The notes beneath the pieces are model-generated. The model had not been told where the DNA came from and made no database searches. It saw only the letters and a program-made list of their open reading frames with translations. The translations under genes and the position numbers were made by a program. DNA of 64,000 nt from Marinobacter fonticola (GTDB taxonomy: Bacteria > Pseudomonadota > Gammaproteobacteria > Pseudomonadales > Oleiphilaceae), in NCBI RefSeq assembly GCF_008122265.1, contig NZ_CP043042.1, positions 2,542,001-2,606,000 on the forward strand. The letters are read 5' to 3'. Below are positions 20,726-25,565 of this stretch, piece after piece (position 1 is the first letter of the stretch; the number at the start of each line of letters is the position of its first letter).

Positions 20726-21949
20726 TCAACCCTCTATCTGCGCCAGCCCTAGCACTCCCTGCCCGGTATGCCGGATAACGGTCGTGCCTTCTTCGGTTTC
20801 AAATACCGTCTGGCCGGCCTGATCTTGCTCACGGCTCATGATCAGCAACCACCGATCCCCCTGGACGGGAAAGACCGGCACACGCGCTTCCAAGTAGCCC
20901 AAGCTGTGCCAGTTTTCGGGCTGATAGTCGAACGCCAGCTCAGTCACCAAACGTTGGGTTTTCATCTCCTGATCGAGAAACACGAGAGTGGGCAGAAACA
21001 CGCCCTGCTTCACGTAAGAGCGCACCTGCATCACAAATGCCCGACTGTCCGCCGCGCTCGGTAGCGGCACCAGCCGGTAGACGCTGGTGCCGGTGGAGAA
21101 GTCGAACTTCGGCGCCAAAGCATCCAGGTCCAATTGGAACTCCCGTGAGTCGTCCCAGTCTCCCACATCCTTTTTGGGCAACTCACCGCAACACTGCCTG
21201 GCCCAGTCCTCCAGCAGGGTCTCCGCCCTGTCGAGACCTAAAACCGTCAGCGCCTCGGCGTTGGCTCGTTCGACAACGGCCTGCCGGGATCCATCGATAA
21301 CCAGCCCCGGGGTTAGCGACGGCGCTGAACGATCCCCCGAGGGTTCCTCGAAGCCGCCCTCTGGCCGGTAGTAATCAACCCGGACATTGCCCTGGGCATC
21401 ACGCCAGGTGAAGTAAGGCAGTGGATCCCCTTCGCGGACGAATCCCTTTTTCGCCAGTTCGTTGCCGTCAGGATAGTTTTCCAGGGTGTACTCTGGGTCG
21501 ATCAATTCCGAGTCGATCGATTCCGAATCGGTGGATTCTGAATCGGCGTCCTTTGCCGGTTTTTTTTGCGTATAAGTGTCCTTGACCGCAGGTTTGCTCT
21601 CTTTGACGATAACCGGCACTGGCGCGACATTGTCCGCGGACGCCGCCGGGACTGGTCCGATGACGGGCTTATCCTTGGCGTTCACGGCCGACTTGGAGCC
21701 GGGTTGTCTCGACTGATTGTTCTTGGGCTGGACTGCCTGCTCTGCCTGCACCTGATCGATCCGTTTTTCGACGGGGCTTTCCCGCTCGGTGATCGGCGAC
21801 TGTCTGACCCGACCGAATTCATCGACCCAAGTAAAGTACCGTTGCTGCCCGTCTGAGGACGGCGCAGTCGAGCATCCGGTGGATAACACAACGCCCGGGA
21901 GAACCAGCAGCCAGATCAGTCGCCATAAGATCACAGAGTTACGCTTCAT
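20726..21949 (-). CDS. Lipoprotein with DUF4124-like repeats and a MalM-like C-terminal domain
   Basis: A 407-residue lipoprotein with lipobox LSTGC (Cys26). Two DUF4124-like segments follow: YFTWVDEFGRVRQSP near the N-terminus and YFTWRDAQGNVRVDYY near residue 185. Between them is a Lys/Ser/Asp-rich linker with SESTDSESIDSE repeats. The last 190 or so residues resemble MalM of E. coli: VFLPTLVFLDQEM matches the MalM pattern VF.PN.L.LDQ.M, and HTGQGVLGL matches HTTDGLLKL. A GTG at 21961 is in frame, but ATG 21949 has GAGAG five bases upstream. It is the last gene of the minus-strand envelope cluster, 46-58 bases after the FadL-type gene. Function unknown; a periplasmic or outer-membrane accessory role is likely. 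Confidence 0.75.
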   Translation of the reverse strand: MKRNSVILWRLIWLLVLPGVVLSTGCSTAPSSDGQQRYFTWVDEFGRVRQSPITERESPVEKRIDQVQAEQAVQPKNNQSRQPGSKSAVNAKDKPVIGPVPAASADNVAPVPVIVKESKPAVKDTYTQKKPAKDADSESTDSESIDSELIDPEYTLENYPDGNELAKKGFVREGDPLPYFTWRDAQGNVRVDYYRPEGGFEEPSGDRSAPSLTPGLVIDGSRQAVVERANAEALTVLGLDRAETLLEDWARQCCGELPKKDVGDWDDSREFQLDLDALAPKFDFSTGTSVYRLVPLPSAADSRAFVMQVRSYVKQGVFLPTLVFLDQEMKTQRLVTELAFDYQPENWHSLGYLEARVPVFPVQGDRWLLIMSREQDQAGQTVFETEEGTTVIRHTGQGVLGLAQIEG

Positions 21950-22007
21950 ATGGGCTCTCACGAATATCTGTCGCTTTCTACGATGAAACGCCGTTCTCGT
22001 CTCTTGC

Positions 22008-23633
22008 TCAGAATTTGGTTCGGAAACTCAGGCCGGCCATAACCACGCGCAACGATGTCTTCACGTCCAATCCGGCATAAGGGTTATAGATAATGTTGGT
22101 AATGCCGTCGCAGTTGATATTACAGCTGGTATCGGCTGGAATTTCCTCGATAGAGTGAAGGTAACTGAGGTTCATGTCGATCTGCGTATCCCGGTCCCAG
22201 CGGTACCCCATGCCGACGCTGTAGAGATTGGCGCCACCAAAAGGCGCCATAATCGATCGCTGATCGTCGGGAATAACCGAGTCCCGGATCTCAACCCCGG
22301 CCCGCAGATCAAGGCGGGACGAGGCGTGAAATTCGGCGCCGAAGGCCCAGTTCCATTGATCCTTGAAGCCCAGCGGCAAGCGCAGGGAATTCGGTGTGGC
22401 GTTGTCCGGCGACAGTATTCGCGCCGCATTGAGGAATTCCAGATTGCGATCAAAACGGAATTCCAGGGCATCCCACTCCGAATAATCCGTCCAGCCCACG
22501 TCGACATTCAGGGTAAGCCTGGGGTGGACCTTGACGCTAACACCGGTCTGGAAATGCTGGGGATACGTCAGATCCAGGCTGACGTTGCCCGACTCGCGAG
22601 GCGCACCTGACGGCAGGCTCAGAATAGCCGACCCGATGGCGCCCAGGATGGAACTGTTGACGCTTTGCCAAAAGCCGGACCAGTCCTCGGTATACTCGAT
22701 CGCAAACTGGCCTTTCATGTTCATGTCGGCTTCGGAGGTATAGCTGGCCCCCCAGCTGAACCAGTCGGTCGGCTCCCACATGACCCCCAGCGCGTAGGTG
22801 GGCGACATGGTTTGCTGCACGTCGATACTCAGGGCACCGATGTCGTCCCAGGGGCCCACGTTACCCCCACACAACGCCAGCCATGGCGCCAGCGGTTCGT
22901 CGCCCGACTCGCAGTTGAACGCGTCCTGCAGCACTTCCGCCACACCCAGCAACATATTCGGCGCCCGCATATACTGATCGGCCGCGATACCCATATGCGA
23001 CAGGTGGATACCCGCACCTACCGCCCACTCGTCATTGACCTCATATCCCACGGTGGGCGACAGATAGGTGGTCCGCTGCAAGGCGGTTGCCTTTGGCTGA
23101 TAGCTACCCGGATCTTCCTTCTCGCGGTAAAAACCAGCCGCCATGGGCATGTAGAAGGCGTTACCAAAGGTCAGTTTCGATCCCGGCTTTTTGATACTGA
23201 TACCCGCCGAGGGTGCCATTGCGGGACCGGGTGGCAACTTCTGCAGACCATATCCGGGGATGTAAAGCGCCACAGTATTGGTATGGCTGTGGCTATTGGC
23301 CACCCTGTCTCGCTGTTCGCCGGTAACGGGATCGGTCTCCAGGCCATCGATGCCGAAAATGTTGTAGCCTTCCGGTGCCGTAAAATCCGCATCGTTGTCC
23401 AGATAGATACCCAGGAGGTTCACCTCGACCTGGCGGCCGTCAAGCTTGGTGAGCCCGGCAGGGTTGTAGTGGATCGCCATGATACCCGGCGGATCGGCGG
23501 TAACGGCATTTCCCAACGCCAGTGCCTTAGGGTGAATAGTCAGATTCTGCGCCAATTGCGCATGGGCACTGCACGACACAGCCCCGGCCGCCAGGGCCCC
23601 GATAATTCGTGTTCTGCAGCGATTAGGTCGCAT
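22008..23633 (-). CDS. FadL/OmpP1-family outer-membrane transporter
   Basis: A 541-residue outer-membrane beta-barrel protein. After a signal peptide (ALAAGAVSCSAHA) comes LAQNLTIHPKALALGNAVTA and then DPPGIMAIHYNPAGL, the N-terminal hatch signature of FadL proteins, which take up long-chain fatty acids and other hydrophobic compounds. It ends with VVMAGLSFRTKF, whose last residue Phe fits barrel insertion by the Bam machine. It is longer than E. coli FadL (about 420-450), with extended loops including CESGDEPLAPWLALC. It lies 42 bases after the FapF-like gene, in an operon with secretion-like genes rather than fatty-acid genes. Confidence 0.9.
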   Translation of the reverse strand: MRPNRCRTRIIGALAAGAVSCSAHAQLAQNLTIHPKALALGNAVTADPPGIMAIHYNPAGLTKLDGRQVEVNLLGIYLDNDADFTAPEGYNIFGIDGLETDPVTGEQRDRVANSHSHTNTVALYIPGYGLQKLPPGPAMAPSAGISIKKPGSKLTFGNAFYMPMAAGFYREKEDPGSYQPKATALQRTTYLSPTVGYEVNDEWAVGAGIHLSHMGIAADQYMRAPNMLLGVAEVLQDAFNCESGDEPLAPWLALCGGNVGPWDDIGALSIDVQQTMSPTYALGVMWEPTDWFSWGASYTSEADMNMKGQFAIEYTEDWSGFWQSVNSSILGAIGSAILSLPSGAPRESGNVSLDLTYPQHFQTGVSVKVHPRLTLNVDVGWTDYSEWDALEFRFDRNLEFLNAARILSPDNATPNSLRLPLGFKDQWNWAFGAEFHASSRLDLRAGVEIRDSVIPDDQRSIMAPFGGANLYSVGMGYRWDRDTQIDMNLSYLHSIEEIPADTSCNINCDGITNIIYNPYAGLDVKTSLRVVMAGLSFRTKF

Positions 23634-23675
23634 TTCATTGATCCCTTGCCGATAAAACGTCTGTCGTCTTCTCGA

Positions 23676-24701
23676 TTACTCCCGGAGTCCCGAGAAGTTG
23701 ATCGGCAGGGAAACACCCAATGAAAAATCGGGTGCGTCTTCGGTCAGGCCGATGCCTACACTGGTGTTAATGATGGTGGTGTCGCTGACCCGCGTGCCCA
23801 GCGACAAGCTTAGGAAGCCGGTCATCTGGTCCTGGGCGACCGCTGCTTCGCCGTTGCTGAAAGTCAGCGTCGTTTCGTCGCTGTAGCTGATCTGGCTGGA
23901 AACACTGAGAGAGATGTCGTATGACAGCGAATAGGCGAAGCCCATGGAGGCAGACAAACCAAAGCCGGGTTCGACCGTGGTCAACAACCGCGCGCCGCGC
24001 ACCTGTTCAAGATCCTCAACCTCCACGTTGTAGCTGGCGCTGGCCGAACCGAAAAGCACCACCGGGTCGAGCACCTTCGACATACTGACGCCGCCGGCCA
24101 CCGTGTAATAACCGCTGCCGGTGGACAATTGGCGATTGACGTCGATCTCGTAAGGGCTGACGCCGGTTTTGGTGGTGATGGAGGTGAACAGGGTGGTCGA
24201 CATCTTGCCCGGTATATACGCCGCCGGTTGCCAGCGGGCCGTAAAGGAGACATCGCCGATATCGTAGATTTCCAACTCATCCTGCGTGTCGTACTTCACC
24301 ACCAGCGGAATACGGGTGCCGATGGTCAGGTTGTCGAATAGCCCGTAATCGTAGGAAAAGGCGTTGGTAAAATTGTGCGTGGCCGACGGCACAATATCCA
24401 GATTTCGCACCGAACCATCGCTGATGTTGACATCAAGCCGCTGATCGCCCGTGTAGGAGTAGTCAAAAGAATAGGTCAGCGCATGCGTGCCATTCTTTTG
24501 TAACGAGTAGTTCTTTTCCGCGGACTGGAAAACCTCTTCCAGCTGCTTGGTGGAATCCTCGTCTTCTTGCTGTTTCGCCAGCGCCTCCCGCGCCTTATCG
24601 ACGTTTTCTTCCTGAGCCCCGTTATTATCCTGCGCCCAGAGTAGGGTCGGCTGACCCGCAACGGAACAGATGATTAAACCTCGCACAACCCAACGATTCA
24701 T
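23676..24701 (-). CDS. FapF-like outer-membrane protein: coiled-coil plug plus beta-barrel
   Basis: A 341-residue protein. Signal peptide to about residue 24 (PTLLWA), then a charged heptad-rich helix at about 31-63 (VDKAREALAKQQEDEDSTKQ), then a beta-barrel with alternating hydrophobic strands from about 70 to the end. This plan, periplasmic coiled-coil plus a small barrel, is that of FapF, the outer-membrane exporter of Pseudomonas functional amyloid. The adjoining C39 peptidase gene (63 bases upstream) matches FapD in type. FapF is usually longer and linked to fapABC, which are absent. It could also be a generic transporter-family barrel. Homology is inferred from architecture and context, not from alignment. 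Confidence 0.65.
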   Translation of the reverse strand: MNRWVVRGLIICSVAGQPTLLWAQDNNGAQEENVDKAREALAKQQEDEDSTKQLEEVFQSAEKNYSLQKNGTHALTYSFDYSYTGDQRLDVNISDGSVRNLDIVPSATHNFTNAFSYDYGLFDNLTIGTRIPLVVKYDTQDELEIYDIGDVSFTARWQPAAYIPGKMSTTLFTSITTKTGVSPYEIDVNRQLSTGSGYYTVAGGVSMSKVLDPVVLFGSASASYNVEVEDLEQVRGARLLTTVEPGFGLSASMGFAYSLSYDISLSVSSQISYSDETTLTFSNGEAAVAQDQMTGFLSLSLGTRVSDTTIINTSVGIGLTEDAPDFSLGVSLPINFSGLRE

Positions 24702-24764
24702 CCCAGCTCCCTTATTATTCGCATTTCGTTTCCCCGACGTGCGGCATACAACCGGTACCGGCCA

Positions 24765-25565
24765 TCAGTTGCGCCGGTAATACAATTGTTTGCGCGTGTT
24801 CTCGACGGTGCCGTCAGAATTATTCTTCTGTCGTTCAAGCAGGTTATTGATGCGGCGACTGGTCGCCTCGTGGAACTCCGGAATGGTGTCCAACGCAAAC
24901 AGCGTCATGGTTTGGTCATCCACAAAACGCATGTCCTCTTCCTTGAGTTCAAGCGCGTCCAGGGGTTTGTCGCTCCCGGGAAACACGATAAAGAGGACGT
25001 TGTCGTCCCACTTTTCCTCGAACTGCGCCAGGGTGAAGGAAATGTTGCCCACGGACGGGTCGGCAATGAACGCGCGGTTATCGCGAATCGCGCGCAGTAC
25101 CACAAAGTGTTTGAATCCGGCATGTTTAATAGGAACGATGGCTGGATGGTCCAGCTCTTTGAGATCCGCAATGCTGGCGCGAAAGCCTCCCGAGGGATAA
25201 CCCAGCGCAGTGACCAGCCGCTTCATGTCCAGCATAGAGAACGCCCTGCGCTCGACAATCCGGTCGCTTTCGCCGTAGTGCAGCAGCCCTTCCATGACCT
25301 GACGTTCGTTCAGGTTGCGGCCCAGGTAATACTTCAGCACCGTAGTCAGCGCCGCCGAGCCGCAGCTGTAGTCATAGGCCTGCCGCACAATGTTGCGGTA
25401 TCGCTGCTCCACAAGAGGTGCGACGCCGACGTCCCAGCGCAACTCCTGCGGGCTGTCATCGAAATTCTGTTCGATGACGATGACGCCGGGGTCACGAGGC
25501 TCAACGACCGTGGCCTCCTGAACCATCGCAAACGTCATGAGGGATCCCGCCAGCACGAGAATCAT
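24765..25565 (-). CDS. Exported C39-family cysteine peptidase (FapD-like)
   Basis: A 266-residue protein with an N-terminal hydrophobic segment (ILVLAGSLMTFAM) and a C39 peptidase domain. The catalytic Cys68 is in YDYSCGSAALTTVL, His153 in GFKHFVVL and Asp169 in FIADPSVG, so the catalytic set is complete. Unlike bacteriocin-processing C39 domains it is not fused to an ABC transporter. Stand-alone exported C39 peptidases of this type include FapD of the functional-amyloid operon. The C-terminal 80 residues are charged and probably helical. The ATG is the only start after an in-frame TAA. First gene of the four-gene cluster. Confidence 0.8.
   Translation of the reverse strand: MILVLAGSLMTFAMVQEATVVEPRDPGVIVIEQNFDDSPQELRWDVGVAPLVEQRYRNIVRQAYDYSCGSAALTTVLKYYLGRNLNERQVMEGLLHYGESDRIVERRAFSMLDMKRLVTALGYPSGGFRASIADLKELDHPAIVPIKHAGFKHFVVLRAIRDNRAFIADPSVGNISFTLAQFEEKWDDNVLFIVFPGSDKPLDALELKEEDMRFVDDQTMTLFALDTIPEFHEATSRRINNLLERQKNNSDGTVENTRKQLYYRRN

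Follow-up and report, generated by a model that had tools for sequence, protein, structure and literature searches.

The 64-kb window analysed here, i.e. the whole stretch of 64,000 nucleotides at positions 2,542,001 to 2,606,000 of Marinobacter fonticola contig NZ_CP043042.1 (a single contig of 4.54 Mb), carries a four-gene envelope cluster on the minus strand that, judged by family scores, is Fil-type: it matches the filB-filC-filD genes of the Acinetobacter fil operon, described as a "putative pilus" system, more closely than it matches fap. The cluster is probably filBCDE and would supply the machinery of a Fil-type filament system; the DUF6160 subunits, encoded elsewhere in the genome, would pass from Sec via cleavage by FilB and export through FilC into a filament. 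No described subunit, assembly mechanism, or structure of the fil system was found in the open-access literature; the subunits (DUF6160), their recognition (a C39-type leader behind a Sec signal), and the product (a filament already in the PDB) now become testable claims.

Composition and family assignment of the cluster

According to the open reading frame (ORF) listing, the four genes are separated by 63, 42, and 46 bases. An earlier note, made from the sequence alone, had described four envelope genes at 42-63 base spacing and an intact Cys/His/Asp set in the C39 peptidase; both observations were confirmed. The features are listed below (aa, amino acids).

24765..25565, minus strand: filB, C39-family cysteine peptidase of 266 aa, predicted periplasmic leader peptidase (PF03412, 74.9 bits; NCBIfam FilB, 270.3 bits)
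25362..25364, minus strand: codon of catalytic Cys68 of filB, identical in 57/57 aligned FilB proteins
25380..25382, minus strand: Gln62 of filB, identical in the same 57/57
25107..25109, minus strand: His153 of filB, identical in the same 57/57
25059..25061, minus strand: Asp169 of filB, identical in the same 57/57
23676..24701, minus strand: filC, 341-aa outer-membrane protein, N-terminal helical region followed by a FapF-type beta-barrel, predicted export channel (NCBIfam FilC, 339.3 bits)
24507..24611, minus strand: filC residues 31-65, predicted periplasmic helices (AlphaFold2; coiled-coil or plug region) with the conserved LEEVFQAAEKxYSLLKKG
22008..23633, minus strand: filD, 541-aa FadL/OmpP1-type barrel (PF03349, 242.9 bits; NCBIfam FilD, 553.4 bits over nearly the whole length)
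20726..21961, minus strand: filE-like, 411-aa envelope protein, possible lipoprotein (MalM, 46.8 bits, C-terminal; DUF4124, 18.2 bits, N-terminal, below cut-off)

The best NCBIfam models of the first three genes are FilB, FilC, and FilD. The comparison with FapD and FapF that the earlier note had proposed did return matches (118.9 and 71 bits), although the FilB and FilC scores are far higher. None of the curated cut-offs is reached, neither for Fil (FilB 270/475, FilC 339/630, FilD 553/970 bits) nor for Fap (FapD 118.9 of 330, FapF 71 of 700 bits). The NCBIfam Fil models are of type "exception", and in the order no more than 2 of 391 genomes pass the FilC cut-off; we therefore speak of a Fil-type cluster and not of Acinetobacter Fil. 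In one of these two genomes (L055), position and family score give the order filA-B-C-D-E-F. An A. baumannii record shares this order; its filB (L250:4889-5728) is split into two ORFs, reflecting either a sequencing error or a broken gene.

Kinship with FapD-FapF, as the earlier note had suspected, is backed by profile and structure comparisons. A profile of 20 FilC proteins had FapF as its sole significant match in the PDB (5O65, E 7.6e-30), and FapF is also the closest solved structure to the predicted barrel, with model residues 54-340 aligned to FapF 88-406, so that profile and model both support a FapF fold of the barrel. The N-terminal helices (residues 31-42 and 48-65), a possible helical plug inside the barrel, were modelled mostly with a predicted local distance difference test score (pLDDT) below 50; model residues 11-62 lie below this value. 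For FilB, which has an N-terminal hydrophobic segment that by eye is an anchor, the closest solved sequence is the double-glycine protease LahT150 (6MPZ, E 1.1e-6).

Conserved in Acinetobacter filABCDEF and the window are filB, filC, filD, and a filE-like gene in equal order and strand, together with FilA-like DUF6160 proteins in the genome. The FadL-type barrel and the MalM-like protein, which had been regarded as the novelty of the cluster, thus already correspond to the slots of filD and filE in a named operon. The window differs in that filA lies outside the cluster and FilA-like genes are numerous and dispersed, and in that the C-terminus of the filE-like product is MalM-like and not FilE_C, the C-terminal family (PF22881) which Acinetobacter-type FilE carries in this slot. 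FilF had no NCBIfam match among the four cluster genes, and the rest of the genome was not searched for it. Likewise, family scans of these four genes and the three genes on the far side (ORFs of 17.5-29 kb were listed) revealed no FapA/B/C/E-like subunit, in line with the absence of FapA/B/C noted before.

Conservation of filB-filC

The FilC protein was found in 36 of 58 genomes, the own genome included, with a best E of at most 2.7e-32 in each; it is 96% identical in one of them (G004), and several of the 36 have a second, weak FapF-like match. The expectation that the neighbourhood would be conserved held: across 56 fetched loci from nine families, filB and filC are adjacent in 56/56 and filD comes next in 55/56, while the FilE protein of the window has a match in 37/56. 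Among named loci, taken as the best 80 of 358 places (69 titled Marinobacter and 11 others that include Hahella, Halospina, Halovibrio, Vreelandella, Tamilnaduibacter, and Mangrovitalea), filC and filD were each found in 80, filB and filE in 79. In each of the five most distant loci (four of other orders plus G052), filB and filC are neighbours, separated in G430 by a 162-aa ORF; filD was seen in G608 only, and the fetched stretches of G642 and G430 stop at filC. Because the pair is kept in the most distant loci while filD is mostly unfound there, filB and filC look like the core of the system. As accessory parts that are not always present, FilD and FilE may aid channel function or anchoring.

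Two further loci deserve mention. In L244, filB-filC, unaccompanied by filD or filE, lie between apparent pilM-Q and apparent pilT/pilU genes, in a genome with 13 DUF6160 matches. In L102:4523-7384, a 953-aa protein is encoded between filD and filE, and its start after the signal peptide resembles the post-GQ sequence of the cargo described below.

Candidate cargo and its second leader

The FilA model had five matches in the own genome, all under cut-off and none near the window. These proteins show an apparent signal peptide followed by a short conserved stretch such as LDDSEMGAVTGQ, and they belong to Pfam DUF6160 (four best 93.6-117.6 bits). A genome search with DUF6160 gave 13 matches at E<=1 in 12 proteins (one match is internal), of which nine are over cut-off; several have only signal and leader in common. 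A thirteenth leader protein (~2.375 Mb) lacks a signal peptide and begins with a cytoplasmic part, which is followed by a membrane segment and SPLSENEMSGVAGQ, while its C-terminus MTIYAH resembles the VYGH of others; it scored E 0.05 with the leader profile and was accepted on reading. At L231:1613-2350, a 245-aa protein has a cytoplasmic domain, a membrane segment, and the leader, the anchor replacing the signal peptide.

All 13 leader proteins are dispersed over the genome. A search of the 139 window ORFs yielded none with a leader (best E 7.9 with the profile rebuilt without own-genome sequences, see below), and the suggestion that the substrate may be encoded elsewhere is probably right. 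Two small clusters of leader-bearing genes exist in the own genome, one of four genes including a product of ~800 aa (L111, 0.778-0.783 Mb) and one of three (L112, 3.534-3.537 Mb); their products are perhaps minor or tip subunits.

The 15-residue stretch after the signal peptide has the register of bacteriocin double-glycine leaders and ends in G-Q. Positions -15, -12, -7, and -4 are L/I/M/V/F and position -10 is Asp or Glu in 13/13 own-genome leaders, -2 is Gly in 12/13, and -1 is Gln in 12/13 and Ala in one. The spacing equals that of C39 double-glycine leaders, and the residue preceding the cut (P1) differs: where C39 substrates have Gly/Ala/Ser, 12 of the 13 have Gln. With a Sec signal and a C39-type leader in tandem, reading the second leader would take a C39 peptidase located in the periplasm. 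Since the first leader profile had included own leaders, it was rebuilt without any own-genome sequence (E scaled to 4,000 sequences). The rebuilt profile recovered 9/13 at E<0.01, a tenth at 0.045, and two at 0.14 and 0.61, and missed the anchored protein. This leader lets the cargo of such systems be sought anywhere in a genome.

Indirect information on the cut comes from the PDB filament 9XFV ("Pilus-like-alpha"), whose subunit is a DUF6160 protein with a resolved chain numbered 38-210. A 210-aa precursor (P0241) matches both printed 9XFV chain pieces exactly and reads ...STVSGQ followed by D38; the resolved residues thus begin directly after G-Q37, i.e. at the predicted cut. The 9XFV subunit shares the leader pattern and the style of C-terminus with the own cargo (WAH vs YGH). 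It differs in that its nearest precursors are from Burkholderiales, and a description of its export machine was not found in the open-access literature.

Co-occurrence of FilC and DUF6160

Strong FilC matches were clearly separated from weak ones in the order (391 genomes; at least 184.3 bits, next value 90.9) and in the class (370 genomes; at least 198.1 bits, next 87.8; 2 of 6 positives are also in the order set). In the order, 58 genomes from 23 genera and nine families have both FilC and DUF6160, none FilC only, one DUF6160 only, and 332 neither; the single exception (G090) has a weak DUF6160 match under cut-off and no FilB match. In the class, DUF6160 occurs in exactly the six genomes with strong FilC. 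Genomes with weak FilC-model matches only, taken as FapF-like, have no DUF6160 (19/391 and 38/370).

The co-occurrence is partly explained by linkage, because in 33/38 loci outside the window's family the fetched stretch of at most 15 kb includes a leader gene. Within the family, a leader ORF is found within 15 kb in 0/18 fetched loci, and the co-occurrence holds there too. In two genomes of this family (G017 and G165, genus group g13), strong FilC and DUF6160 are missing and no leader is found (best E 0.9 and 0.6), but the genes for the polysaccharide deacetylase and TtcA, between which the cluster lies elsewhere, are retained; G017 has a FapD-like peptidase match alone (80.8 bits) and G165 none.

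Proposed mechanism and alternative explanations

DUF6160 (FilA-like) filament proteins are the most likely cargo, in place of a FapB/C-type amyloid or the lipid or polysaccharide which the earlier note had considered. Subunits would enter the periplasm via Sec, where signal peptidase would expose a pro-leader of 15 or 16 residues with the double-glycine hydrophobic pattern and a Gly-Gln end. The membrane-anchored periplasmic C39 peptidase FilB would bind this leader and cleave after G-Q, the processed, unfolded subunit would cross the FapF-type barrel FilC, and outside the subunits would assemble into a pilus-like filament. We infer FilB as the cutter, FilC as the channel, and the order of events. 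More broadly, and with somewhat less assurance, we favour a route in which Sec export, a C39-type leader read in the periplasm, and a FapF-type channel serve many unlinked filament genes at once; Fap would work likewise, FapD removing the canonical GG leader from FapE-like proteins.

Several points speak against the proposed mechanism. Gln at P1 is unusual for C39, 9XFV shows only where the resolved chain begins, and the profile built without own sequences clearly recovers 9, not 12, of the 13 leaders. The first two would suit a scenario where FilC does export DUF6160 proteins while the pro-leader serves for targeting or plug binding and is removed by another protease or left on, disordered in the filament. 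We regard this as unlikely, given that C39 substrates have the same -12/-7/-4/-2 register, the catalytic residues of FilB are all kept (57/57), and the resolved chain of 9XFV begins exactly at the predicted cut.

About equally improbable is that FilBCDE moves a lipid, polysaccharide, or small peptide, with DUF6160 proteins sharing only a biofilm programme with it. Such cargo would fit the FadL-type barrel and the MalM-like protein of the cluster, as well as the polysaccharide deacetylase gene that adjoins the cluster on the opposite strand, a position kept in most of these 80 loci from named records. However, filB-filC are kept in the five most distant loci, where filD was seen in one only (two others are cut by the contig end), the leader is explained by a C39 peptidase, and DUF6160 tracks FilC almost without exception. 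Similarly improbable is a diverged Fap system in which FilB and FilC process and export a FapB/FapC-type amyloid, perhaps from the genome's own Fap-type locus: the FapF (71 bits, plus structural likeness) and FapD (118.9 bits) matches are as expected from it, but FapD-like and FapF-like genes of that locus stand next to candidate cargo of their own, and genomes with FapF-like matches only lack DUF6160 while all strong-FilC genomes have it.

Relation to known systems

The proposed export of DUF6160 subunits by FilB and FilC has in common with Fap of Pseudomonas (FapA-F) a periplasmic C39 peptidase, a FapF-type barrel, and export of fibre subunits. The window cluster is distinguished by the lack of FapA/B/C/E, far weaker FapD/FapF scores, an additional FadL-type barrel, another cargo family, and the separate position of Fap-type genes in the genome. 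With the C39 domains of LahT150, PCAT1, and ComA and with bacteriocin leaders, the system shares the register -12, -7, -4, -2 and the C39 fold with Cys/His/Asp. Unlike in those systems, the leader stands behind a Sec signal, the peptidase is separate with no ABC transporter, and P1 is Gln.

The own Fap-type locus (~4.037-4.042 Mb; L004:6826-12055) encodes a sigma-54-type regulator (by eye), a FapF-like barrel (161 bits) and a FapD-like C39 peptidase (163 bits), both under cut-offs, a FapE-like ORF with a GG leader carrying LDEPALDQQRGGF, and two further proteins, one of 134 aa with LTSGQLEESNGRQG and one of 334 aa made up of DNS repeats. The corresponding ORF of another genome (G026) has a signal and EPLSDPELSEYRGGF, a canonical double-glycine leader. 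We read both ORFs as FapE by position, the own-genome ORF having matched no family model. According to a 2017 study, FapE is the sole fap-operon protein with complete N-terminal processing, and the target of FapD was left open (PMC5557850). One principle may apply to Fil and Fap, and it hints at FapD's target. In another genome of the family (L238:988-6370), four Fap-type genes (repeat protein, small protein, FapD-like, and FapE-like) are duplicated in tandem.

FilF is reported to be raised in the pellicle of A. baumannii, and FilC and FilF in its biofilm (PMC3203104, PMC8792954), which fits a surface filament. FilF has also been tried as a vaccine antigen (PMC4751259, PMC11834437). Concerning the surroundings of the cluster, a tRNA search of the window found none, and pyruvate dehydrogenase genes were recognised by eye beyond filB.

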